Shown in pieces: positions 3,482 to 34,765 of a stretch of 36,297 bases of DNA; within the stretch, counting starts at the first letter, position 1, and every line of letters begins with the position of its first letter. The notes beneath the pieces are model-generated. The model was not told where the DNA came from. It did no database searches and was given only the letters and a program-made list of their open reading frames with translations. A program made the translations under genes and the position numbers. Source of the stretch: Clostridia bacterium (GTDB taxonomy: Bacteria; Bacillota; Clostridia; Christensenellales; Aristaeellaceae); the NCBI GenBank assembly GCA_017547805.1, contig JAFYOR010000097.1, forward strand, positions 1 through 36,297, read 5' to 3'.

Positions 3482-3513
3482 TGAGACGACAAACAGCGGA
3501 TAATCGGGGTTTA

Positions 3514-3661
3514 CAGAACCGAAATTGTCGCCTGCGGCTCCTCTTCGGTTCCCGTGGATGCGGGCTGCGCCCGTTGGGATGGGGGGACGTTGGGCTGCCG
3601 CCCAAACCTGCCTGAGGGATTCTCCCTCAGACTCCCTTTATCGCTTCGCGGCGGTTATAAG
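3514..3661 (+). repeat. Family A repeat, copy A4, upstream of valS
   Basis: The copy holds GAACCGAA...TTCGGTTC at its 5' end, then hairpins GGGC-TGC-GCCC, TTGGGC-TGCC-GCCCAA and CTGAGGGA-TTC-TCCCTCAG, and the tail ATCGCTTCGCGGCGG. It ends about 43 bp before the valS start. Compared with A2, the stem sequences differ on both arms but pairing is kept. Confidence 0.92.
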
Positions 3662-3703: not shown

Positions 3704-6418
3704 ATGATTATGGAAATGGAAAAGGTTTACAATCCCCAAGCCATTGAAGATGGCCTCTATAAGGAGTGGGAAGAATCCGGCGCGTTCGTGGCGCATCGCG
3801 TGGAAGGCAAGAAGCCCTTCACCATCGTCATGCCCCCGCCCAACATCACCGGCCAGCTGCACATGGGTCATGCGATGGACTGCACCCAGCAGGATGCGCT
3901 CATCCGTTATCATCGCATGAAGGGCGACCCGACCCTCTGGCTGCCGGGCACCGACCACGCCGCCATCGCCACCGAGGTCAAGATCGTGGAAGCGATGGCC
4001 AAGGAAGGCCTGACCAAGGAAAGCCTTGGCCGTGAAAAGTTCCTTGAGCGCGCGTGGCAGTGGAAAAAGGATTACGGCGGACGCATTGTCCACCAGCAGC
4101 GCCGCATGGGCGTCTCCTGTGACTGGAGCCGCGAGCGCTTCACCATGGACGAGGGCTGCTCCAAGGCCGTGCGCGAGATCTTCTGCCATCTCTACGAGAA
4201 GGGCCTGATCTACCGCGGCAACCGTCTGGTCAACTGGTGCCCGATGTGCCAGAGCGCGATTTCCGACGCCGAGGTCGAGCACAAGGAGATGGACGGCAAC
4301 TTCTGGCACCTGCTCTACCCGGTCAAGGAAACCGGCGAATACCTGGAGCTGGCGACCACCCGTCCGGAGACGATGCTGGGCGATACCGCCGTGGCCATCA
4401 ACCCGGAGGATCCGCGTTACAAGCATCTGCACGGCTGCCACGTCATCCTGCCGCTCATCAATAAGGAAATCCCGATCGTCTGCGACGAGCATGCGGACAT
4501 GGAGAAGGGCACCGGCGTGGTGAAGATCACCCCGGCGCACGATCCCAACGACTACGAAGTCGGCCAGCGCCACGACCTGCCGCTGGTTCGTGTCTTCACC
4601 TACGACGGCCACATGACAGGCAGCGCCGATAAGGCGGCGGCGGACGAGCTGATCGCCTCTGGCAAGGGCAGCAAGAACGAGCCGGAAGTGCTTGACTGCG
4701 GCAAGTACGCCGGCATGACCACCGAGGATGCCCGCAAGGCGATCGTCGCGGACATGACGGAGCTGGGCCTGCTCAAGGAAGTCGAGCCGCTCAAGCACGA
4801 GGTCGGCGTGTGCTACCGCCACGGCAAGACCGCCATCGAGCCGATGGTGAGCAAGCAGTGGTTCGTCGACATGAAGCCCGTGACCATTCCGGCCATCGAG
4901 GCCGTCACCTCCGGCAAGACGCAGTTTGTTCCGGAGCGCTTCACCAAGAACTACATGAACTGGATGGAGAACATCCGCGACTGGTGCATCTCCCGCCAGC
5001 TCTGGTGGGGCCATCGTATCCCGGTGTGGTACTGCGATGACTGCGGCGAGATGATGGTTCTGCGCGAGGATCCGTGCCAGTGCGCCAAGTGCGCCAGCAA
5101 GAACATCCGTCAGGACGAGGATGTGCTGGATACGTGGTTCTCTTCCGCGCTCTGGCCGTTCTCCACGCTCGGCTGGCCGGACAACACCGAGGATCTCAAG
5201 TACTTCTACCCGACCAGCGTGCTGGTGACGGGCTATGACATCATCACCTTCTGGGTTTCCCGCATGATTACCACGGGCGTGGAGGAGATGGGCGAGACTC
5301 CGTTCCATACCGTCCTCATCCACGGCCTCGTGCGCGACGCGCTGGGTCGCAAGATGAGCAAGTCTCTGGGCAACGGCGTGGATCCGCTGGAGATCATCGA
5401 CCAGTACGGCGCGGACGCGCTGCGCTTCAGCCTGTCCATGGGCGTCTCCCCGGGCAACGACATGCGCTTCTCCAGCGACAAGGTGGAGTCCGCGCGCAAC
5501 TTTGCCAACAAGATCTGGAACGCGAGCCGCTTCGTGCTCATGAACCTTGGCGAGACTGCCGAGGACATGGAAGGCAAGGAATTCTCCGCCGCCGACAAGT
5601 GGATCCTTGCGCGCCTGAACGACACCATCCGCGAGATCACCGAGCACTTTGAGGAGTACGATCTGGGTCTGGCGGCGCAGAAGATTTACGACTTCGCGTG
5701 GAGCGAGCTGTGCGACTGGTACATCGAGCTGGCGAAGGTCACCATGAACGGCGAAGACGAGCAGGCCCGCAAGGCGACCTGCGCGGTGCTGCGCCACGTG
5801 CTGATTTCCGTGCTCAAGCTGCTGCATCCGTTCATGCCGTTCCTCACCGACGCGGTGTATCGCTATGTGCCGGGCACCGAGGGCACGATCATGCTCTCTG
5901 ACTGGCCGCAGGCGAATACTGCGTATGACTTTGCCGAGGCTGCGCGCGAAATGACCGGCGTGATGGACGTCATCCGTGCGGTGCGCAACCTGCGCGCGGA
6001 GATGAACGTTGCCGTCGGCAAGCGCGCCAAGCTCATCGTCCGCCCGAAGAGCGGCTGGGAGCATGCGATGGCCGGCGCGGAGGACTATCTCAAGCGCATG
6101 GCATGGGTGAGCGAGATGACGCTCCTCGCTGCGGGCGAAGACGCGCAGGGCAAGATGGTTTCCGCCGTTTCCGAGGCGGCCGAGCTGTTCATTCCGCTGG
6201 GCGATCTGGTCGATCTTGACAAGGAGATTGCCCGCCTGACGAAGGAGAAGGAGAGCGTGGAGCGCGATATCCAGCGTGCCGAGGGCAAGCTGAATAATCA
6301 GGGCTTCATCGCCAAGGCGCCGGCTGCGCTCGTTGAGCAGGAGAAGGCGAAGCTGGAGGTCAATAAGGATAAGCTCGCCAAGCTCACCGCCCGTATCGAG
6401 GACCTCAAGAACATGTAA
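3704..6418 (+). CDS. valS: Valyl-tRNA synthetase
   Basis: ValS charges tRNA-Val with valine in the cytoplasm and edits mischarged threonine. The product of about 904 aa is normal for the family. The class I signatures are present: HMGH at residues 53-56 in PPPNITGQLHMGHAMD, and KMSKS at about 550-554. The CP1 editing region follows TTRPETMLGDTAV, and the protein ends with the typical ValS coiled-coil arm (LVDLDKEIARLTKEKES to the end). ATG 3704 follows AAAGGA at 3694-3699; ATG 3710 is an equally possible start with a longer spacing, and an in-frame extension to 3554 would run through the repeat and is unlikely. The gene lies downstream of a Val-specific T-box. It is flanked by facing family A copies (A4 and A5). 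Confidence 0.98.
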   Translation: MIMEMEKVYNPQAIEDGLYKEWEESGAFVAHRVEGKKPFTIVMPPPNITGQLHMGHAMDCTQQDALIRYHRMKGDPTLWLPGTDHAAIATEVKIVEAMAKEGLTKESLGREKFLERAWQWKKDYGGRIVHQQRRMGVSCDWSRERFTMDEGCSKAVREIFCHLYEKGLIYRGNRLVNWCPMCQSAISDAEVEHKEMDGNFWHLLYPVKETGEYLELATTRPETMLGDTAVAINPEDPRYKHLHGCHVILPLINKEIPIVCDEHADMEKGTGVVKITPAHDPNDYEVGQRHDLPLVRVFTYDGHMTGSADKAAADELIASGKGSKNEPEVLDCGKYAGMTTEDARKAIVADMTELGLLKEVEPLKHEVGVCYRHGKTAIEPMVSKQWFVDMKPVTIPAIEAVTSGKTQFVPERFTKNYMNWMENIRDWCISRQLWWGHRIPVWYCDDCGEMMVLREDPCQCAKCASKNIRQDEDVLDTWFSSALWPFSTLGWPDNTEDLKYFYPTSVLVTGYDIITFWVSRMITTGVEEMGETPFHTVLIHGLVRDALGRKMSKSLGNGVDPLEIIDQYGADALRFSLSMGVSPGNDMRFSSDKVESARNFANKIWNASRFVLMNLGETAEDMEGKEFSAADKWILARLNDTIREITEHFEEYDLGLAAQKIYDFAWSELCDWYIELAKVTMNGEDEQARKATCAVLRHVLISVLKLLHPFMPFLTDAVYRYVPGTEGTIMLSDWPQANTAYDFAEAAREMTGVMDVIRAVRNLRAEMNVAVGKRAKLIVRPKSGWEHAMAGAEDYLKRMAWVSEMTLLAAGEDAQGKMVSAVSEAAELFIPLGDLVDLDKEIARLTKEKESVERDIQRAEGKLNNQGFIAKAPAALVEQEKAKLEVNKDKLAKLTARIEDLKNM

Positions 6419-6423
6419 TCCGG

Positions 6424-6577
6424 CTTTAAACCGCCGCGAAGCGTCATGGGGTCAAGGGGCGAAGTCCCTTGTCGGGGCTTGGGGTGAAACCCCAAACGTC
6501 CCCCATCGTCCTCAACGGGCGCGGCCTGAACACATCGCAAACCGAACAGCCGGCGCAGTCGGCGCTTTCGGTTCTGA
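6424..6577 (-). repeat. Family A repeat, copy A5 (inverted), after valS
   Basis: Reverse-oriented copy starting six bases after the valS stop. On the - strand it begins with CAGAACCGAAAGCGCCGAC and an inner GCCGAC-TGC-GCCGGC-like stem, and includes TTGGGG-TTTCA-CCCCAA and the AAGGGGC..CCTT hairpins. It pairs with A4 around valS. The H1 hairpin near 6518-6530 is degenerate. Confidence 0.9.
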
Positions 6578-6618
6578 AAGAGCGGCGGTAAACCCTCGCT
6601 TATACAGGCAAAACATCA

Positions 6619-6650
6619 GGTGGACGGAGATTTTCTCCGTCCACCTTTTC
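6619..6650 (+). terminator. Intrinsic terminator after valS
   Basis: GGTGGACGGAG/CTCCGTCCACC forms an 11-bp perfect stem around a short ATTTT loop, followed by TTTTC. It lies beyond repeat A5, about 200 bp after the valS stop, and probably ends the T-box/valS transcript. Confidence 0.85.
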
Positions 6651-6729
6651 AAATGCCGTCTTTTGCTGTAAAATGGTATCAGAGATGCTTTGCACTTCTG
6701 ACTGAAACAGAGGAATAGCGAGAAACCAA

Positions 6730-6779
6730 GCCCGCCCCTTTGGGGAAGGTGGCATGCCGAAGGCATGACGGATGAGGTT
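6730..6779 (+). repeat. Family B repeat, copy B1
   Basis: This 50-bp copy has a degenerated first arm (GCCCGCCCCTTTGGGG), then AAGGTGGCATGCCGAAGGCATG and ACGGATGAGG. It contains two adjacent hairpins, the CCCC-TTT-GGGG stem and CATGCC-GAA-GGCATG. It lies in the valS-folC intergenic region with family C and A copies. Confidence 0.88.
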
Positions 6780-6805
6780 CCCTCGCATCGCTTCACGACA
6801 GAATT

Positions 6806-6832
6806 TGTAGGGGAGGGGCTCTGCTCCTCCCG
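6806..6832 (+). repeat. Family C short hairpin repeat
   Basis: TGTAGGGGAGGGGC followed by TCTGCTCCTCCCG; the stem GGGAGGGGC/GCTCCTCCC includes one G-T pair. The same element recurs almost identically at 16863. Confidence 0.82.
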
Positions 6833-6871
6833 CGCCGCGAACAGAAGAACGGCGGCTTAAAGCAGATGAAT

Positions 6872-7029
6872 CAGAACCGAAAGCGCCGCCTTTGGCGGCT
6901 GTTCGGTTCACGCATACAGCGGGCTTCGCCCGATGGGGAGGACGGGAGGACGATAAGGGCTGCCGCCCTTATGATCCTGCCAAGGGGCTGAGCCCCTTGA
7001 CCTCGCATCGCTTCGCGGCGGCTTAAAGA
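6872..7029 (+). repeat. Family A repeat, copy A6, upstream of folC
   Basis: Complete copy with the clearest structure: GAACCGAA/TTCGGTTC encloses GCCGCC-TTT-GGCGGC; next come CGGGC-TTC-GCCCG, ATAAGGGC-TGCC-GCCCTTAT and CAAGGGGC-TGA-GCCCCTTG, then CATCGCTTCGCGGCGG. It ends about 38 bp before the folC start. The region 6419-7067 contains only repeats A5, B1, C and A6 and the valS terminator; no gene was found. Confidence 0.93.
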
Positions 7030-7067
7030 ATGTTTTCTCAAAGAACGGAGTATCCGGAGGTGTCTTC

Positions 7068-8357
7068 ATGACGGAACAACAGGCCATCGCTAAAATCCAC
7101 AGCGTATACCCTTCCGGAAAAAAGGAAGGCCTGACCAACATGCGCGCGCTGCTTGCGCGCATCGGCAATCCGCAGGAACGCCTTCGCATGGTTCATGTCG
7201 CCGGCACAAACGGCAAGGGCTCCTGCTGCGCGATGCTTGAACGCATGCTGCGCGAGGCCGGTTACAGGACGGGCCTGTATTCTTCGCCCTATATCGAGCG
7301 CTACAACGAGCGCATCCGCCTGAACTTTGTCCCGATCGAGGGTGACAAGCTCGCTTCGCTCGTGGAGTGCATCTGGCCGCATGTGGAAGCTTGTCAGGAA
7401 GAAGGCTATCACATCACCGAGTTTGAACTGGGCACCGCGCTGGCGTTCATGGCGTTCGCGCAGGAGCAGGTCGACATTGCGATCATTGAGGTCGGCCTTG
7501 GCGGCAGGCTCGATCCCACGAACATCATCACCCCGCTGGTTTCCGTCATCACCGAGGTCGGCATGGATCACATGGGTTTCCTTGGCAGCACAATCGGAGA
7601 GATTGCGCTGGAAAAGGCGGGAATCATGAAGCGCGGCGTGCCCGTCGCGCTGGGGCCGCAGAAAAAGGACGCGCTTGCCGTGCTCATGGCGGCGGCAAAG
7701 GGAGCGGGCGTGACCGTGATCGATCCTGACGCGCAGAACGTGAAGGAAACCGACCGCAGCGTCACGTTTGATGTGAAGGTTGGCGGGGAAACGATCAAGG
7801 GCCTGACCGTCTCCCTCCCGGGTAAGCACCAGAGCGAAAACGCCTGTGCCGCGCTTGGCGCCGTCTGTGCGCTGCGCAAAAAGGGGTATCAGATTCCATT
7901 GGAAGCCATTCGCCGCGCGATGGCGGATGTCAGCTGGCCCGGGCGGCTGGAGCGCTTCGGGCGCGTGATTCTTGACGGCGCGCACAATGATCCCGGCGTG
8001 CGCGCGCTGTGCCTGTATGCGGACAAGTGGCTGGATAAGAGGAATACTGTGCTGCTTTCGGGCATGATGGCCGATAAGGAGACGGAAAAGATGACGCAGC
8101 GCCTTGCTTCCCGCGCACGCTGCTGCGTAACGACGACGCCGTCCGTGCCGCGCGCGATGCCGGCGGCGGAACTGGCGCAGGCGTTTGGCAAGCAGGGACT
8201 CAAGACCTATGCCGTGGACGAGCCGGAAAAGGCGCTGCAAAAGGCGCGCGAGCTCGCCGGGCCGGAGGGAACCGTGCTCTGCGCCGGATCGCTGTATCTG
8301 ATCGGCGAGCTGCGCACATTACTCAGAAGTGAAAAGGAGTTTGCCCATGTCGTTTGA
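7068..8357 (+). CDS. folC: Folylpolyglutamate synthase / dihydrofolate synthase
   Basis: FolC adds glutamate to folates and, when bifunctional, to dihydropteroate, in the cytoplasm. The 429-aa product has the Mur-ligase-type fold signatures: the ATP-binding P-loop GTNGKGS at residues 46-52, the SSPYIERYNERIR folate loop just after, EVGLGGRLDPTN around 140-151, and a C-terminal ligase segment with WPGRLERF and LDGAHNDPG. ATG 7068 follows GGAGGTG with good spacing. The last 11 bases overlap the rsmH start, with the rsmH SD inside folC, so the two should be translationally coupled. Whether it has the dihydrofolate synthase activity cannot be decided from sequence; no other folate gene is nearby. 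Confidence 0.96.
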   Translation: MTEQQAIAKIHSVYPSGKKEGLTNMRALLARIGNPQERLRMVHVAGTNGKGSCCAMLERMLREAGYRTGLYSSPYIERYNERIRLNFVPIEGDKLASLVECIWPHVEACQEEGYHITEFELGTALAFMAFAQEQVDIAIIEVGLGGRLDPTNIITPLVSVITEVGMDHMGFLGSTIGEIALEKAGIMKRGVPVALGPQKKDALAVLMAAAKGAGVTVIDPDAQNVKETDRSVTFDVKVGGETIKGLTVSLPGKHQSENACAALGAVCALRKKGYQIPLEAIRRAMADVSWPGRLERFGRVILDGAHNDPGVRALCLYADKWLDKRNTVLLSGMMADKETEKMTQRLASRARCCVTTTPSVPRAMPAAELAQAFGKQGLKTYAVDEPEKALQKARELAGPEGTVLCAGSLYLIGELRTLLRSEKEFAHVV

Positions 8358-9339
8358 GGAAAAGAAGGAACAGGTGCTTGCGCAGCAGACTGCGCAGGAG
8401 GGCGACAGCTTTAAGCACCTGAGCGTCATGCTCAAGGAAACCGTCGACATGCTCGGTGTGCGCGAAGGCGGCATCTATGTCGACGGCACGCTTGGCGGCG
8501 GCGGACACAGCGCGGAGATTCTGCGCCGGCTCGGCGGCACGGGCCATCTTTACGGCATCGACCGCGACAACGACGCGCTTGCTGCCGCGACGGCGCGCCT
8601 TGGCGGCGCGGGCAATTTCACCGCCGTCAAGGGCAACTTCCACGATGTGAAGGCGCTGCTTGCCCAGCGCGGAATCGAGCGCATCGACGGTATGATGATC
8701 GATCTTGGCGTAAGCTCCTATCAGCTGGACACCGCCGAGCGCGGATTTTCCTACCATGCCGACGCGCCGCTGGACATGCGTATGGATCAGGATCAGGCGC
8801 TGACCGCGGCGGACATCGTGAACACCTGGAGCAAGGCGGAGATCACGCAGATTCTGCGCGACTACGCGGAGGAAAAATGGGCGGCGCGCATTGCGGACAT
8901 CATCCTTGAGCACCGCGCGAAAAAGCCGCTTGAAACGACGGCGGATCTGGTTGCCTGCGTCGACGCGGCGATTCCCAAGAAGATCCGCATGCAGGACAGC
9001 GGACACAGCGCGCGCCGCACGTTCCAGGCGCTGCGCATTGCGGTCAACGATGAGCTTGCGCCGCTTCGTCAGGCGATTGAGGACATGGCGGACATGCTCG
9101 CTCCGGGCGGACAGCTTGCCATCATCACCTTCCATTCCTTGGAGGACCGCATCGTCAAGCAGACGCTGCGCACCCTTGCCAACCCCTGCACCTGCCCGCC
9201 GAGGATTCCTGTGTGCATCTGCGGTAAAAAGCCGGTGGTCAAGGTCCTTGGCGGCGGCGGCGTCAAGCCGAGCAAAGAGGAAATCGAAATCAATCCGCGT
9301 TCCCGCAGCGCGATGCTGCGTGGCTGCGTGAAATTATAA
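8347..9339 (+). CDS. rsmH: 16S rRNA (cytosine(1402)-N(4))-methyltransferase RsmH
   Basis: RsmH (MraW) puts the N4-methyl group on C1402 of 16S rRNA, in the P site. The 330-aa product has the SAM-binding GTLGGGGHS at residues 47-55, the IDLGVSS segment, the FHSLEDRIVK motif and a C-terminal Cys-rich loop (CTCPPRIPVCIC) common in Firmicutes homologues. It carries about 20 residues before the conserved HLSVML start. ATG 8347 is chosen because AAAAGGAG ends ten bases before it; the in-frame ATG 8329 has no SD. The gene is not in its usual dcw division cluster (mraZ, ftsL and pbp genes are absent) but overlaps folC by 11 bp. The C1402 2'-O-methylase gene rsmI follows 0.8 kb downstream. Confidence 0.97.
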   Translation: MSFEEKKEQVLAQQTAQEGDSFKHLSVMLKETVDMLGVREGGIYVDGTLGGGGHSAEILRRLGGTGHLYGIDRDNDALAAATARLGGAGNFTAVKGNFHDVKALLAQRGIERIDGMMIDLGVSSYQLDTAERGFSYHADAPLDMRMDQDQALTAADIVNTWSKAEITQILRDYAEEKWAARIADIILEHRAKKPLETTADLVACVDAAIPKKIRMQDSGHSARRTFQALRIAVNDELAPLRQAIEDMADMLAPGGQLAIITFHSLEDRIVKQTLRTLANPCTCPPRIPVCICGKKPVVKVLGGGGVKPSKEEIEINPRSRSAMLRGCVKL

Positions 9340-9389
9340 GCCTTCCCCTTTGGGGAAGGTGGCATGCCGAAGGCATGACGGATGAGGTC
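9340..9389 (+). repeat. Family B repeat, copy B2, abutting the rsmH stop
   Basis: The 50-bp element GCCTTCCCC-TTT-GGGGAAGG, then TGGCATGCC-GAA-GGCATG, then ACGGATGAGGTC begins on the very base after the rsmH TAA. It has two hairpins and no T-run. It ends about 20 bp before the SD of the next gene. Confidence 0.93.
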
Positions 9390-9419
9390 CCGCCCGCAGG
9401 CGAACGTTTAGGAGGAACT

Positions 9420-9878
9420 ATGCGCAGAAGAGACAGGGAGATTACCGACAAAGCGAAAATAGCGGGTATTCTCATGCGCGCGCAGGCGATGAGCCTTGCC
9501 TTTGCCGGAGAGCCGTATGTGATCCCGATGAACTACGGATTTACCTTTGACGGAGAGGAATTCAGGCTCTATATCCACGGCGCAAGCGAAGGCAAGAAGG
9601 ACGATCGGATGCTTACCGATCCGCGCGTGGCGTTCTGCGTCTACACCGACAACCGTGTTTACCGCGATATGGACGAGGAATACACTTCCTCCTTTGACAG
9701 CGTGTGCGGCGAGGGCGTCGTGACGATGCTGCGCGGAGAAGACAAGGTGCGCGCGCTTTCCGCCATCATGGCGCACTACGCGCCGGGTCGGGAGTTTGTC
9801 TTTGACGCGCGGACGCTTGTAAACACGATGGCGGCGGAGATCACCGTGACGAAGATCACCGGCAAGCATCACGATTGA
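9420..9878 (+). CDS. Pyridoxamine 5'-phosphate oxidase-like flavin-binding protein (NimA-like)
   Basis: The 152-aa product looks like the split-barrel flavoproteins of the PNPOx-like/NimA group: an N-terminal helix of the MRRRDREITD type, then LAFAGEPYVIPMNYGFTF around residues 36-53, LYIHGASEGKK near 59-69 and a central CVYTDN strand. Such proteins bind FMN or F420-like cofactors; substrates are usually unknown, and some homologues reduce nitroimidazoles. ATG 9420 follows AGGAGG at 9411-9416; the in-frame extension to 9375 starts inside repeat B2 and is rejected. A nitroreductase-family gene is 1.2 kb downstream, but no functional link is evident. Confidence 0.88.
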   Translation: MRRRDREITDKAKIAGILMRAQAMSLAFAGEPYVIPMNYGFTFDGEEFRLYIHGASEGKKDDRMLTDPRVAFCVYTDNRVYRDMDEEYTSSFDSVCGEGVVTMLRGEDKVRALSAIMAHYAPGREFVFDARTLVNTMAAEITVTKITGKHHD

Positions 9879-9905
9879 GAAGAATTTACTGCTTCGTGCG
9901 CAGTC

Positions 9906-9933
9906 TGTAGGGGAGGGGCTTCTTAACCTCCCG
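9906..9933 (+). repeat. Family C short hairpin repeat (decayed)
   Basis: TGTAGGGGAGGGGCTTCTTA followed by ACCTCCCG keeps the repeat's left arm and a partial right arm (GGGAGG/CCTCCC) with a changed loop. It lies between the flavoprotein gene and copy A7. Confidence 0.7.
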
Positions 9934-9966
9934 CTGGGTTTTGCGAGGCGGTTTTACGCATGTTTA

Positions 9967-10117
9967 CAGAACCGAAATTGTCGCCTGCGGCTCCTCTTCG
10001 GTTCCCGGGGATGGCGGGCTTTGCCCGTTGAGGGGACGATAGGGGCTGCCGCCCCTAAGACCCCGCCTGAGGGACAATGGCCCTCAGACTCCCTTCATCG
10101 CTTCGCGGCGGTGAAAA
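9967..10117 (+). repeat. Family A repeat, copy A7, upstream of rsmI
   Basis: Complete copy with GAACCGAA/TTCGGTTC, CGGGC-TTT-GCCCG, TAGGGGC-TGCC-GCCCCTA, CTGAGGG-ACAATGG-CCCTCAG and the ATCGCTTCGCGGCGG tail. It ends about 30 bp before the rsmI start and shows arm changes relative to A4 and A6 that keep the stems paired. Confidence 0.92.
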
Positions 10118-10147
10118 GAATGATTGTTCATTACAGGAGGAGATTTC

Positions 10148-11047
10148 ATGCCCCGCCTTTACGTCGTCGCCACGCCCATCGGCAACCTTGGCGACATGAG
10201 CCCGCGCGCCATCGAGACGCTCAAATCCGTCGACCTCATCGCGGCGGAAGATACGCGCGTCACCCGCGGATTGCTCAATCATTTTGGAATTGACACGCCC
10301 TGCGTTTCCAACCATCAGCACAACGAAGAGCACCGCGCCGCATCCCTGCCCGAGCGCATGCTCGCGGAGGATCTTTCTGTCGCCGTCGTCACCGATGCGG
10401 GTACGCCCTGCATCAGCGACCCGGGCAGCGTCCTCGCGCGTGAAGCCGCCGCCGCTGGCATCGAGGTGATCGCCGTTCCCGGCCCGACCGCCATGGCCAG
10501 CGCGCTGAGCGTCAGCGGGTTTGATGTGCGCGAATTTGCCTTTTATGGCTTCCTTCCGCGCGGCAAGAAGGAGCTGCGTGAAAAGCTCCTCGCCATGCAC
10601 GCCTCCGGCGTGCCGGTGGGCGTCGTGCACGAATCGCCGCATCGCGTCATCGAGCTTGTGCGCGTGATCAGCGAAACGCTGCCGGGCTGCCGTATTTCTG
10701 CCTCCTGTGATCTGACCAAGCTCTACGAAAAGACCATCCGCGGCGCGGCAGAGGACGTGCTGGCCATGCTGGAGAGCAACGAGAAGGCGGAGAAGGGCGA
10801 ATACTGCCTTGTGCTTGACATGAGCGCTGTCAGCCTGCCCGCGAAGGAGGAGGCGTCCAGCGCCAGCCTTGAGGCGCAGCTCTTTGAGGAAATGCTCTGC
10901 GGCGCGGATATCCGTCAGGCGGCGGAGCTGCTGCTGGAGCGCGGGCACAAGCGAAACGACGTTTACCGCGCGAAGACGGTTGTGCAGCGTTATTTTGACG
11001 ACATGATCGACAGCCTGATTGAGGAGGTTGAAGGCGATGACGAATAA
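10148..11047 (+). CDS. rsmI: 16S rRNA (cytidine(1402)-2'-O)-methyltransferase RsmI
   Basis: RsmI methylates the 2'-OH of C1402 in 16S rRNA, the same nucleotide modified by RsmH. The 299-aa product begins with the family signature LYVVATPIGNLGD, has AAEDTRVTRGLLNHF around residues 36-50, the SAM-binding region TDAGTPCISDPG near 82-93, VPGPTA and the FYGFLPRGKKELRE segment. It is a tetrapyrrole-methylase fold protein of usual length plus a C-terminal helical tail. ATG 10148 follows GGAGGAG; upstream in-frame sequence lies between repeat A7 and the SD. The stop overlaps the start of the nitroreductase gene by 11 bp. Confidence 0.97.
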   Translation: MPRLYVVATPIGNLGDMSPRAIETLKSVDLIAAEDTRVTRGLLNHFGIDTPCVSNHQHNEEHRAASLPERMLAEDLSVAVVTDAGTPCISDPGSVLAREAAAAGIEVIAVPGPTAMASALSVSGFDVREFAFYGFLPRGKKELREKLLAMHASGVPVGVVHESPHRVIELVRVISETLPGCRISASCDLTKLYEKTIRGAAEDVLAMLESNEKAEKGEYCLVLDMSAVSLPAKEEASSASLEAQLFEEMLCGADIRQAAELLLERGHKRNDVYRAKTVVQRYFDDMIDSLIEEVEGDDE

Positions 11048-11801
11048 GGCGATGGAAAACCCCGTCATCCGTCAACTGCTTGAGCGCAAGTCCATGCGCG
11101 TCTACGAGCAGGAGCCGATGCCGGAAGACGACGTGCGCGCGATCCTCGCCGCCGCCGTGCAGGCGCCGACCGCGGGCAATATGACGCTCTGGACGGCGAT
11201 CCGCGTGACGGACGAAACGAAAAAGCAGCAGCTTGCCGTTTCCTGCGACAATCAGCCGTTCATCGCCACCGCGCCTCTTGTGCTGGTTTTCTGCGCGGAT
11301 TACAAGCGATGGTTTGACGTGTTCAAAACCGTCGATCTGGGCGAAGCGCTGCGTCAGCCCGGCGCAGGCGACTTCCTGCTGGCGATGGAGGATGCGGTGA
11401 TCGCCGCGCACGCCGCTGTAACCGCCGCGGACGCGCTGGGTTACGGTTCGTGCTACATCGGCGATATCCTTGAAAACTGCGACACGCAGCGCGAAATCCT
11501 TGGTCTGCCCGAATATGTCAAGCCCGTATGCATGGCGGTCTTCGGCAAGCCGACAGCGCAGCAGCTGGAGAGAAAGAAGCCGGTGCGCTTTGAGATTGAC
11601 GATGTGGTGCATGAAAACACGTACCGCGACGCCGGCGCGCAGGGCATGCGGGACATGCTCATGCGCCGTCAGGGCATGGCAGGCGAGGAATTTGAGCGCT
11701 GGCTGCTGGCGTTCACCAAGCGCAAGTGGAACAGCGAATTCAGCGAAGAGATGACGCGATCCGCCGCACAGATGATTGATGAGTGGAATGAAGGAAAGTG
11801 A
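11037..11801 (+). CDS. Nitroreductase family protein
   Basis: The 254-aa product belongs to the FMN-dependent nitroreductase family, most like the NfsA/FRP branch: N-terminal ERKSMRVYEQEPM (residues 16-28, the flavin phosphate-binding RxSxRxY-type motif), AVQAPTAGNMTLW near 41-53, and GYGSCYIGDI around 137-146. It probably transfers electrons from NAD(P)H to quinones, flavins or nitroaromatics; the real substrate is unknown. ATG 11037 lies nine bases after GAGGAGG, which is inside rsmI, so translation is coupled. An inverted family B copy starts 5 bp after its stop. Confidence 0.92.
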   Translation: MTNKAMENPVIRQLLERKSMRVYEQEPMPEDDVRAILAAAVQAPTAGNMTLWTAIRVTDETKKQQLAVSCDNQPFIATAPLVLVFCADYKRWFDVFKTVDLGEALRQPGAGDFLLAMEDAVIAAHAAVTAADALGYGSCYIGDILENCDTQREILGLPEYVKPVCMAVFGKPTAQQLERKKPVRFEIDDVVHENTYRDAGAQGMRDMLMRRQGMAGEEFERWLLAFTKRKWNSEFSEEMTRSAAQMIDEWNEGK

Positions 11802-11806
11802 CGCAA

Positions 11807-11856
11807 GACCTCATCCGTCATGCCTGCGGCATGCCACCTTCCCCAAAGGGGAAGGC
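11807..11856 (-). repeat. Family B repeat, copy B3 (inverted), left of DUF559 gene
   Basis: On the + strand it reads GACCTCATCCGTCATGCCTG then CGGCATGCCACC then TTCCCC-AAA-GGGGAAGGC, the reverse complement of copy B2 with a changed loop. It is 50 bp long and faces copy B4 at 12248-12297; the 391 bp between them hold only the DUF559 gene and its SD. Confidence 0.93.
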
Positions 11857-11884
11857 TTGTTTTGAATGAAGGGATTGAGGCGTC

Positions 11885-12247
11885 ATGGAGAAGATTTACT
11901 ATAATCGATCCCTGAAACAGCGGGCACAGGAGCTGCGGCGGGAAGCGACAATTCATGAAAAGCGCTTGTGGTATGAATTTCTGAAAAAGCATCCCCGGCA
12001 GTTCAGACGGCAAAAACAATTTGGACGATATATTGTGGATTTTTATTGCAGTAGTGCAAAGCTGATTATTGAATTGGATGGAAAACAGCACAATGAGCCA
12101 GAAGCTGTTGTGCATGATCGGGCGAGAACAGCTTATCTTGAAAGTTTGGGATATTATGTTCATAGAATCCCAAATGATATGATTGAGAAGGATTTAGAAG
12201 CAGTCTGTTGCTATATTGATAAGATTATTGAAGAAAGAAGTAAATAA
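11885..12247 (+). CDS. DUF559 (Vsr/restriction-endonuclease-like) protein in an inverted-repeat cassette
   Basis: The 120-aa product matches the DUF559 family, a PD-(D/E)XK-like fold related to Vsr endonucleases: TIHEKRLWYEFLKK (about residues 22-35), FRRQKQFGRYIVDFYC (40-55) and KLIIELDGKQH (59-69), with the acidic D52 and E63 and the D65/Q68/H69 region as likely catalytic residues, then a C-terminal YVHRIPNDMI. ATG 11885 follows GAGG at 11877-11880. The gene is clearly AT-richer than its neighbours and its codon use differs, consistent with transfer. It lies between inverted family B repeats, one starting on the base after its TAA. A DNA nicking or cleaving role is plausible from the family, but function is unproven. 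Confidence 0.9.
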   Translation: MEKIYYNRSLKQRAQELRREATIHEKRLWYEFLKKHPRQFRRQKQFGRYIVDFYCSSAKLIIELDGKQHNEPEAVVHDRARTAYLESLGYYVHRIPNDMIEKDLEAVCCYIDKIIEERSK

Positions 12248-12297
12248 GCCTTCCCCTTTGGGGAAGGTGGCTCGCCGCAGGCGAGACGGATGAGGTC
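12248..12297 (+). repeat. Family B repeat, copy B4, abutting the DUF559 stop
   Basis: GCCTTCCCC-TTT-GGGGAAGG is followed by TGGCTCGCC-GCA-GGCGAGACGG and ATGAGGTC. The second hairpin is CTCGCC/GGCGAG instead of CATGCC/GGCATG, a paired change on both arms. It begins immediately after the TAA. Confidence 0.93.
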
Positions 12298-12300
12298 CAC

Positions 12301-12337
12301 ACGCAGACTCCGGTCTGCGTTTTTTTTTTTTTTTTTT
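12301..12337 (+). terminator. Intrinsic terminator with an 18-T tract
   Basis: ACGCAGAC-TCCG-GTCTGCGT is a perfect stem, followed by 18 consecutive T (12320-12337). It ends the DUF559 transcript or the longer one from the rsmI region, and insulates the XRE promoter. Confidence 0.92.
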
Positions 12338-12345
12338 CAAAAGAA

Positions 12346-12409
12346 TGTAAAGTACCCTTGACATCACCTTTTCTCTGTGCTATTCTATAGATGTAAAGCA
12401 AGCTTGACT
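12346..12409 (+). promoter_or_regulatory. XRE promoter with two 18-bp operator-like sites
   Basis: The promoter is TTGACA (12358-12363), 17-bp spacer, TATTCT (12381-12386). Two copies of TGTAAAG-N4-CTTGAC(A/T), at 12346 and 12392, are imperfect dyads (7-4-7) and lie exactly 46 bp apart, one over the -35 and one over the transcription start. The same pattern with the same spacing occurs before the XRE gene at 35254. Autoregulation by the XRE protein is the natural inference. Confidence 0.75.
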
Positions 12410-12428
12410 TTTGTTTTGAGGTGAACCC

Positions 12429-12632
12429 ATGAAAAACAGGCTGGAAGAACTGCGCAAAGCACGGGACATGCGTCAGGAGGATCTGGCGCAGGCGCTGGGC
12501 GTCTCACGCCAGACGGTGATCTCCCTTGAAAAGGGGAAGTATAATCCGTCGCTGTCTCTGGCGTTTAAGCTCTCGCGCGTATTTGCGCTGCCGATTGAGG
12601 AAATTTTCGACGATTCGGATGAATGCGCATAA
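12429..12632 (+). CDS. Small XRE-family (Cro/CI) helix-turn-helix regulator
   Basis: The 67-aa protein is almost entirely one HTH_3 domain: RLEELRKARDMRQEDLAQAL (helices 1-2), GVSRQTVISLEKGKYNPSL with the recognition helix at about residues 29-36, and IEEIFDD at the end. ATG 12429 follows GAGGTG. Proteins of this size without a ligand domain usually repress their own promoter and a partner gene. A membrane protein follows 12 bp downstream. It is closely similar to the XRE protein at 35254-35469, including the recognition helix. Confidence 0.93.
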   Translation: MKNRLEELRKARDMRQEDLAQALGVSRQTVISLEKGKYNPSLSLAFKLSRVFALPIEEIFDDSDECA

Positions 12633-12644
12633 GGAGGATTTGAT

Positions 12645-13079
12645 ATGAAGTGCAAATTGACGGAAAAGAAGAACATGACGATCATGCTGATCGTCGGCCT
12701 CGTGATGATCGTCGTGGGCTTGGTGGCAGCGCTTTTGCTGCCGGAGGAAGCGCACGCGCTGACGAAGGCGGCGGGTGTGATCAACGGCATGGGCTTTGCC
12801 CTTGCGGTGATGAGCGGCGCGGTGCTCCTGCGCAGAAAGCGTCTGGGCGAGGCGCGCGCCAATGACAGCGAGCTGGCGATGAGCGACGAACGCGGCGTCA
12901 TGATCGCCTACAAGGCGCAGAGCGTGACGGCGATTGTTGCCATCATCGGCATCGTCGTCATCCTGCTCACGGCGCTGTTCCGGGGCGATACGCTGTATAT
13001 GATCATGGGCACGGTGATGTGCTTTGTGATTGCCGCAGTCAAGTTCGGCGCATTGCAAATCTTCAACAAGATGATGTAA
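12645..13079 (+). CDS. XRE-linked integral membrane protein (DUF2178-like)
   Basis: The 144-aa product has four hydrophobic segments, around residues 11-29, 42-61, 90-110 and 116-138, with a soluble loop around 62-90 containing LRRKRLGEARANDSELAMSDER. The overall pattern (two TMs, a conserved D-E-R-rich loop, two TMs) resembles small DUF2178-type membrane proteins found next to XRE regulators in Firmicutes; the assignment is tentative and the function unknown. ATG 12645 follows AAGGAGG. The gene forms a two-gene operon with the upstream XRE gene and ends at a terminator. The unlinked pair at 35254-35899 has the same layout. Confidence 0.82.
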   Translation: MKCKLTEKKNMTIMLIVGLVMIVVGLVAALLLPEEAHALTKAAGVINGMGFALAVMSGAVLLRRKRLGEARANDSELAMSDERGVMIAYKAQSVTAIVAIIGIVVILLTALFRGDTLYMIMGTVMCFVIAAVKFGALQIFNKMM

Positions 13080-27849: not shown

Positions 27850-27922
27850 TTAAAACAGCGCGAAGCGAAGAAGGGGTTTGGGGATGAAATCCCCAAACGG
27901 GTTTGGGCGGCAGCCCAATACG
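27850..27922 (-). repeat. Family A repeat, partial copy A8 (inverted)
   Basis: Only the 3' half of the element remains, read on the - strand: GGGCTGCCGCCCAAACCC, the TTTGGGGAT/ATCCCCAAA hairpin and the CTTCGCTTCGCGC tail. The GAACCGAA hairpin end is missing. It lies after the rny terminator. Together with the recQ promoter it accounts for 27664-28044; no gene is seen there. Confidence 0.85.
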
Positions 27923-34640: not shown

Positions 34641-34765
34641 GCGCGAAGCGGAGAAGGGGTTTGGGGATGAAATCCCCAAGCAGGTTTGGGCGGCAGCCCA
34701 ACGTTTCCTTATCATCTAAGAAAAACCAGAACCGAACAGGAGCCGAAGGCGACGCTTTCGGTTCC
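34641..34765 (-). repeat. Family A repeat, copy A9 (on - strand), upstream of the P1B-ATPase gene
   Basis: Read on the - strand it starts with GGAACCGAAAGCGTCGCC and TTCGGTTC, lacks the GGGC/GCCC hairpin, keeps GGGC-TGCC-GCCC and the GGGGAT-TTC-ATCCCC hairpin, and ends with CTTCGCGC. It ends about 40 bp before the ATPase start, so it follows the rule that forward copies precede start codons. It separates the HMA gene from its ATPase. Confidence 0.9.

Follow-up and report, generated by a model that had tools for sequence, protein, structure and literature searches.

Genes for compact DUF559 proteins and a dispersed repeat made of two hairpins form a real unit, in which the type of the repeat tracks the enzyme; of this there is very little doubt. 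One such unit lies in the window, that is, the whole stretch of 36,297 nucleotides of DNA from a Clostridia bacterium analysed here. Because the pairing recurs in many bacteria with matched versions of enzyme and repeat, it points to a family of mobile DNA, which does not seem to have been described before: no report of the pairing was found in the literature on DUF559, REP/RAYT and related elements, as covered by titles and the openings of abstracts, with subscription papers mostly outside. In the REPtrons of REP/RAYT (TnpA-REP) systems, a small nuclease gene is flanked by a dispersed folded repeat and the types of the two are matched, according to the available parts of two reports (PMC8266576, PMC3733652). 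The DUF559 gene is likewise flanked by inverted copies of a dispersed repeat with which its types are paired, but its predicted product is a Vsr-like PD-(D/E)XK enzyme rather than a Y1 HUH protein, and the repeat combines two hairpins with a purine-rich tail and carries no GTAG tag. The original prediction was of a REPtron-like unit with a different nuclease. On balance, we judge it probable that the unit is a mobile cassette of this kind, in which a Vsr-like nuclease replaces the Y1 transposase and drives the spread of both the repeats and the cassette.

Short folded repeats are common in bacterial intergenic space, and some large classes of them have no known enzyme; the accessible part of a 2013 survey says so explicitly of one such class (PMC3733652). 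With a cognate nuclease available for expression and assay, the origin of such repeats would become directly testable. If the proposed reading is true, it would provide both a function for DUF559, which Pfam lists as a family of unknown function, and a way for small elements to spread without a transposase.

The Cassette in the Window

As had been noticed, a DUF559 gene stands alone between two inverted copies of the repeat, here termed B. The gene (11885-12247, plus strand; 120 aa) was recognised from the list of open reading frames and its match to the Pfam DUF559 profile. The left repeat, B3 (11807-11858, minus strand), matches the covariance model R1 with E 6.4e-19 and belongs to the inverted pair I5; the right repeat, B4 (12246-12297, plus strand; R1 match, E 1.6e-19), is inverted with respect to B3 and starts at the stop codon of the gene. 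Ungapped matches extend B3 to 11862 and begin B4 at 12242, and the arms of the pair show 91% complementarity across 56 nt. B3 has a class 1 (GGTGGC) end with hairpin 1 facing the gene, and the orientation of the window cassette is hairpin-inward. The greater AT content noted for the gene was also confirmed, its GC being 39.4% against 58.9% for the window, a value as low as this occurring in 0.03% of 363-bp windows, with a GC3 of 0.37 against 0.78 and 0.85 in two neighbouring genes. A putative ribosome-binding site of the gene can plausibly be read from the sequence, and a minus-strand ORF crossing the cassette (11669-12163) is taken as spurious. Inspection of the flanks of B3 and B4 by eye revealed no convincing target-site duplication.

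To the left of the cassette lies a gene (11019-11801, plus strand) whose putative product, judged by its sequence, is nitroreductase-like, and to the right an HTH regulator gene, named by eye (12429-12632, plus strand). The two genes stand beside each other in 12 relatives, and the promoter-like sequence upstream of the HTH gene is similar in relatives. A terminator-like hairpin with a run of 18 T, recognised by sequence reading, occupies 12303-12337 (plus strand) just beyond B4. The lone B copies noted near 6730 and 9340 are present: one at 9338-9389 (plus strand), at the stop codon of an rsmH-like gene (8329-9339), and a diverged one at 6723-6778 (plus strand), which has an altered hairpin 1 arm, is 93% complementary to B3 and belongs to the inverted pair I3. 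Elsewhere, the window holds a second dispersed hairpin family (AACCGAA...TTCGGTT) in both orientations, with copies at 117-206, 1897-1943, 3491-3580, 6528-6574, 6849-6938, 9944-10033 and 34718-34764, as well as other palindromic families (at 27858, 34641 and 10034, among other places).

Structure and Types of the Repeat

In the 2.67-Mb draft genome of the source organism (83% complete), the B core pattern CTTCCCCN{2,5}GGGGAAGGTG is matched exactly at 41 places and, when read backwards as a control, at none. The repeat consists of a first hairpin whose 5' arm is rich in pyrimidines and whose 3' arm is rich in purines, followed by TG, a second hairpin and a purine-rich tail. The sequence of hairpin 2 varies among copies while its pairing is kept; within one genome (L003-L032 and the window), both arms of hairpin 2 are seen to change together, hairpin 1 and the tail being largely constant. 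Across 46 elements, 92.7% of cells are paired, compared with 72.8% after shuffling and 39-54% with slid partners, a figure that is partly circular, hairpin shape having served to select some of the seed elements. The types are set apart by the first hairpin and the tail, and are designated B (CTTCCCC), C (CTCCCTT), D (CTCCCTC), E (CTCTCCC), F (CTCCCCT) and G (CTCCTTT). In alignment A1, invariant columns fall in the AG.TG and C.GA parts, and no GTAG-type tag is conserved beside the hairpin. A search of Rfam with positions 6000-13000 of the window returned four weak matches, none at gathering score.

The tail and the purine arm of hairpin 1 tend to be related by mirror symmetry (z 14.3, against 4.1 for direct symmetry, over 255 distinct arm-tail pairs from L101-L132 and L163-L241), which is kept as a hint because the elements are related and the excess per distinct arm is modest by eye. 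Such symmetry hints that the element may fold into an intramolecular purine-purine-pyrimidine triplex, a structure that the enzyme would read.

The DUF559 Protein

The window protein matches Pfam DUF559 with E 8.4e-31, and MTES_1575 with 2.3e-8, below the cut-off of that family. Profile comparison matched 3hrl over most of its length (E 2.7e-23), 3r3p (E 0.0015) and PvuRts1I (0.046). The 3r3p entry is a mobile intron protein, which we take to be the EDxHD homing endonuclease I-Bth0305I; DUF559 is thus related to such homing endonucleases by sequence profile, although its genes, unlike theirs, appear to be free-standing between dispersed repeats. Residues D52, E63, D65, G66 and H69, of catalytic type, are invariant over 54 rows, and residues of the VDF and ELDGxQH motifs are conserved. 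These features make the protein a likely PD-(D/E)XK nuclease of the Vsr/EDxHD branch. The PD-(D/E)XK fold is not known to join strands by itself. A cyanobacterial DUF559 gene has been assigned to EDxHD before, in the portion of the source available (PMC9403480). In Caulobacter, a mutant lacking a cytosine methyltransferase reportedly depends for its SOS response on VsrA, a protein with a DUF559 domain; VsrA is proposed to act in very-short-patch (VSP) repair, and this DUF559 protein has thus been linked to mismatch repair (PMC12907096).

Recurrence of the Repeats beside DUF559 Genes

A search with the PF04480 profile in 100 genomes of the same family (set 1) gave matches at 47 places in 36 genomes, of which 33 places in 23 genomes were full-length DUF559 genes (E <1e-20). 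The 14 weaker matches (E 1.5e-9 to 9.8e-4) were excluded; seven of them were inspected (L055-L061), and six have no R1 match, while locus L056 of genome G078 has a DUF559 frame with two stops between two tail-inward repeats and is a decayed cassette. All 33 full-length genes have an R1 element within 300 bp. Within 250 bp, a repeat is found upstream in 29, downstream in 23 and on both sides in 20, or 21 if L051 is included, whose right repeat runs 27 nt into the gene; 11 have a called repeat on a single side, and a further one lacks any. As controls, these regions contain 317 further ORFs of 80 aa or more, of which 36 have a repeat upstream, 37 downstream and 4 on both sides; none of the 71 control ORFs shorter than 500 bp is flanked on both sides. 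The R1 model had been built from elements of the set 1 regions together with the B loci of the source genome, and a second set is therefore the cleaner test. It comprises the best 79 loci of 569 relatives, mostly Clostridia MAGs, two of which (L165, L168) also belong to set 1. Here, repeats occur within 250 bp upstream in 59 of 79, downstream in 54 and on both sides in 41, with at least one repeat at 72 loci and none at 7; the control ORFs have repeats on both sides in 12 of 369 and at least one in 122 of 369.

One of the seven loci without a repeat, L188, is placed in this class by a wrong gene boundary, and five others (L176, L198, L206, L229, L240) have diverged hairpins by eye. L240 comes from a MAG labelled Betaproteobacteria (Emb289P4bin67), where a close relative of the Clostridia genes has similar hairpins downstream, through transfer or misbinning. 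The finding that the original prediction had named as contrary to it, homologues mostly lacking flanking repeats, does not apply to the close subfamily (33/33 and 72/79 with repeats) and does hold for distant DUF559 proteins.

Repeat Type and Protein Relatedness

Only 3 of 30 inner branches of the protein tree are well supported, and a distance-based test was therefore used. Each gene was labelled by up to two nearest repeats, L046 not being typeable. In Mantel comparisons, protein distance is correlated with repeat distance both for the hairpin arm (r 0.36) and for the tail (r 0.59), values that none of 5000 permutations reached in either comparison. Within one genome, paralogues from distant clades have different repeat types: G060 has B, D and F; G086 three B and one C/F; G051 two F and one D; G001 C and D; G013 D and C; and G000 B and D. 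In genomes with several copies, 16 genes were compared with the closest protein from another genome, and the hairpin arms are identical in 10 cases and different in 6. In addition, the 8 genomes with a B-type gene contain more matches to the B pattern (3 to 210) than the 15 genomes with genes of other types (zero in 10; p 4e-4), one or two B copies in each B-type genome following from how the labels were constructed.

Orientation and Ends of the Cassettes

At 55 of the 62 genes flanked on either side by repeats, the nearest pair is inverted; 46 pairs are tail-inward, 9 hairpin-inward, as in the window, and 7 direct. Among 41 tail-inward cassettes in which both ends could be classed, 25 have a class 1 end upstream and a class 2 end downstream and one has the reverse, the remaining 15 having the same class at both ends (22 in 8, 11 in 7). 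At the right end, the repeat overlaps the 3' end of the DUF559 gene at 23 of 79 loci in set 2 and 5 of 33 in set 1, and so encodes the last residues of the nuclease and its stop; in set 2 the overlap is exactly 24 nt at 19 of these 23 loci, and QSLSQ is found at 15 of the 23.

Repeats also form close pairs that hold no gene, and tail-inward doublets of this kind have 1+2 ends in 25 of 35 classed cases. Gene-less neighbours within 200 bp, counted, like these doublets, together with two places common to both sets, are mixed in orientation (tail-inward 45, hairpin-inward 42, direct 40), so that orientation alone is no rule. The source genome has 9 gene-less close pairs, all hairpin-inward like the window cassette. 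Five repeat-rich genomes without a full-length DUF559 gene, inspected out of 20 (G007, G045, G050, G094, G009), contain 33 close pairs among the 150 places listed, of which 25 are tail-inward, 5 hairpin-inward and 3 direct. An origin of the doublets by internal deletion of a cassette was considered and set aside, since five spacers in the source genome are, by eye, unlike pieces of the DUF559 gene. The common ends of the gene-bearing unit and the gene-less doublets recall pairs of IS elements and MITEs; unlike these, the cassette has no transposase of a known family, its ends vary in orientation and no target duplication is seen by eye in the window flanks.

Distribution among Relatives and Genomes

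The site of the cassette, with both neighbouring genes, could be compared in 12 relatives of the same genus. The DUF559 gene is absent from all 12 and R1 repeats from 11, the exception being L074, which has a gene-less pair. At the rsmH stop, where the window has a single B, no R1 match was found at the junction in 28 of 28 genus relatives, in 13 of which the next gene is the same; in one relative (L289) a repeat pair lies about 0.5 kb beyond this junction. The simplest reading is that the cassette and the single B were gained in the source lineage, with loss elsewhere as the alternative.

The pair at L074 bears on the main rival explanation, according to which the nuclease gene behaves as a homing-like gene, entering pre-existing repeats on its own by cutting gene-less pairs and being copied into them through recombination between homologous repeats, with the repeats spreading by other means. 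We consider this unlikely, but it is in line with the profile match to the 3r3p mobile intron protein (E 0.0015), with the syntenic gene-less pair and with the common ends of gene-less doublets and cassettes. It accords poorly with the other 11 of the 12 gene-less syntenic sites, which have no R1 match either, with the lineage specificity of the single repeat and with the covariation of protein and repeat type. Since the single repeat is itself lineage-specific, the repeats would still need a mobiliser under the homing-like reading.

The co-occurrence of gene and repeats, which had been proposed as a check, was confirmed: all 23 genomes with a full-length DUF559 gene contain R1 matches, compared with 29 of the 77 that lack one (p 1.5e-8, a value which, like those given for the B pattern and for Y1 transposases, ignores kinship, as genomes of one genus are not independent). 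At least five matches were found in 21 of 23 and 20 of 77 genomes, respectively, with 59 candidates at most scored per genome in most cases. Abundance of the repeats in genomes without DUF559, which the original prediction regarded as telling against it, is therefore seen in part, namely in these 20 of 77. Some of them are nearly complete (G007 and G094, for example), and G078, with its broken gene, was counted as gene-lacking; repeats without a gene could reflect decay after loss of the gene or gaps in the drafts. A Y1 transposase was rejected as the mobiliser, because the PF01797 profile had no match in the source draft genome, repeats were present in 15 of 33 genomes with Y1 transposases and 37 of 67 without (p 0.40), and no R1 repeat was found at 30 Y1 loci.

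The repeat-bearing genomes that lack full-length DUF559 could also be explained if the protein were a housekeeping nuclease, structure-specific or of very-short-patch repair, that guards the genome against hairpins or mismatches and lies near repeats owing to common accumulation in intergenic DNA. The need for Caulobacter VsrA in the SOS response and its proposed part in VSP repair would suit this explanation (PMC12907096). We find it rather improbable in view of the patchy presence of the gene (full-length in 23 of 100 genomes), the odd composition of the window gene, the asymmetric and partly coding ends of the cassette, and the different repeat types of distant paralogues in one genome.

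A Possible Mechanism of Spread

The REPtron-like mobile cassette thus draws support from recurrence, type tracking, the ends with their occurrence on gene-less doublets, lineage specificity, the anomalous composition of the window gene and the lack of a link to Y1, and is weakened by the 20 of 77 gene-less genomes that are rich in repeats. We infer that its enzyme recognises and cleaves the repeats and that cleavage drives their spread. The compact Vsr-like nuclease would recognise its cognate two-hairpin repeat, either as a folded single strand or as an extruded cruciform, and would cut there, after which the cassette may be copied into new intergenic sites as the break is repaired or recombined. 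Gene-less repeats and repeat pairs copied in the same way would be non-autonomous derivatives. Several observations argue against such a cassette: the variable orientation (hairpin-inward in the window, tail-inward in most, direct in 7 of 62), repeats on one side only (11/33), ends of the same class (15/41), imperfect typing (6/16), repeats near the ends of other genes (122 of 369 control ORFs), no target-site duplication by eye at the window cassette, a fold that is not known to join strands by itself, and the link of a Caulobacter DUF559 protein to mismatch repair (PMC12907096).

Repeats that lie just beyond coding ends, can fold and covary (in seeds partly chosen by shape) would also be expected of transcript-level elements, such as terminators, stabilisers or attenuators, regulating DUF559 and other genes. 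We hold this explanation to be quite improbable, because the two-sided layout is rare in controls (4/317 and 12/369) and regulation predicts neither the tracking of protein by repeat type nor lineage-specific presence. Chance, by which dense repeats (such as the 210 B pattern matches in G086) would come to flank any small intergenic gene, has a negligible probability given that 0 of 71 short ORFs are flanked on both sides, that 30 Y1 loci have no R1 repeat and that repeat type tracks the protein.

Occurrence outside the Family

Beyond the family, 12 of 36 plasmid records with DUF559, chosen for variety, and one of two phage records were read; the places in the plasmid collection belong to Pseudomonadota, Cyanobacteriota and Deinococcota, and the phage place is a gut contig. 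At 9 of these 13 loci, in Pseudomonadota, Deinococcus and the gut phage contig, pyrimidine/purine hairpins that are perfect and measure 8 bp or more occur within 300 bp of DUF559, at a density of 2.44 per kb near the gene compared with 0.22 elsewhere in the loci. By eye, the remaining four (Azospirillum, Pseudanabaena, E. coli, Novosphingobium) resemble these, and the Novosphingobium repeats are scored by R1. Near distant DUF559 genes, such hairpins were found at 1 of 10 loci (0.17 per kb), these being the countable ones of 17, the others consisting of partial matches, very long frames or cut loci; R1 matched nothing at the 17 distant loci (L263-L279) at E 0.1. The distant proteins L263-L270, L273 and L277 form a contrasting group, mostly of frames of about 140-175 aa, without R1. 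Three close-type genes outside the family gave a clear R1 match (L260), a weak one (L261, E 0.005) and none (L262), and hairpins are visible by eye at the latter two.

The Shinella unit has at least 40 pieces in its own record and is present in 282 plasmid records. On a Sphingomonas plasmid, a DUF559 gene (L242, 2977-3372) lies between NAD(P) transhydrogenase genes, with one purine/pyrimidine hairpin that ends some 37 nt upstream of its annotated start and a second that overlaps its 3' end by 24 nt. In the phage contig (L252), unannotated and from human gut, R1 repeats lie immediately upstream of the DUF559 gene, and the contig is a possible vehicle for transfer.

A broader view, which we put forward tentatively and hold to be less probable than not, is that compact DUF559 nucleases are dedicated mobilisers of a very widespread superfamily of pyrimidine/purine hairpins in several phyla, a class that would use host repair and no transposase, would include common repeats without an enzyme, and to which the triplex hint would extend. 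The CGTC-tagged REPs of Di Nocera (2013) are dispersed palindromes that form dimers and are said, in the available part of the report, to lack a dedicated transposase; they are described there as single hairpins of 8-9 bp with a stem starting in AT and a CCA tail, found in five phyla with no Firmicutes (PMC3733652). The DUF559-linked repeats are similarly dispersed and paired as doublets, but differ from the elements of that partial description in having two hairpins. CGTC repeats were rejected as the partner of a Neisseria DUF559 gene, as the one locus read carries other hairpins.

Like the window cassette, E. coli has a DUF559 protein, YcjD (b1289), with a hairpin repeat downstream, starting 163 nt past the stop; unlike it, the repeat is one-sided and is not scored by R1. 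This repeat has matches in 5375 of 5426 genomes, at a median of 17 places, and the copy at ycjD is perhaps old and fixed. Directly upstream of ycjD, a near-perfect palindrome of about 45 bp is also seen (L254, near 7761-7829).
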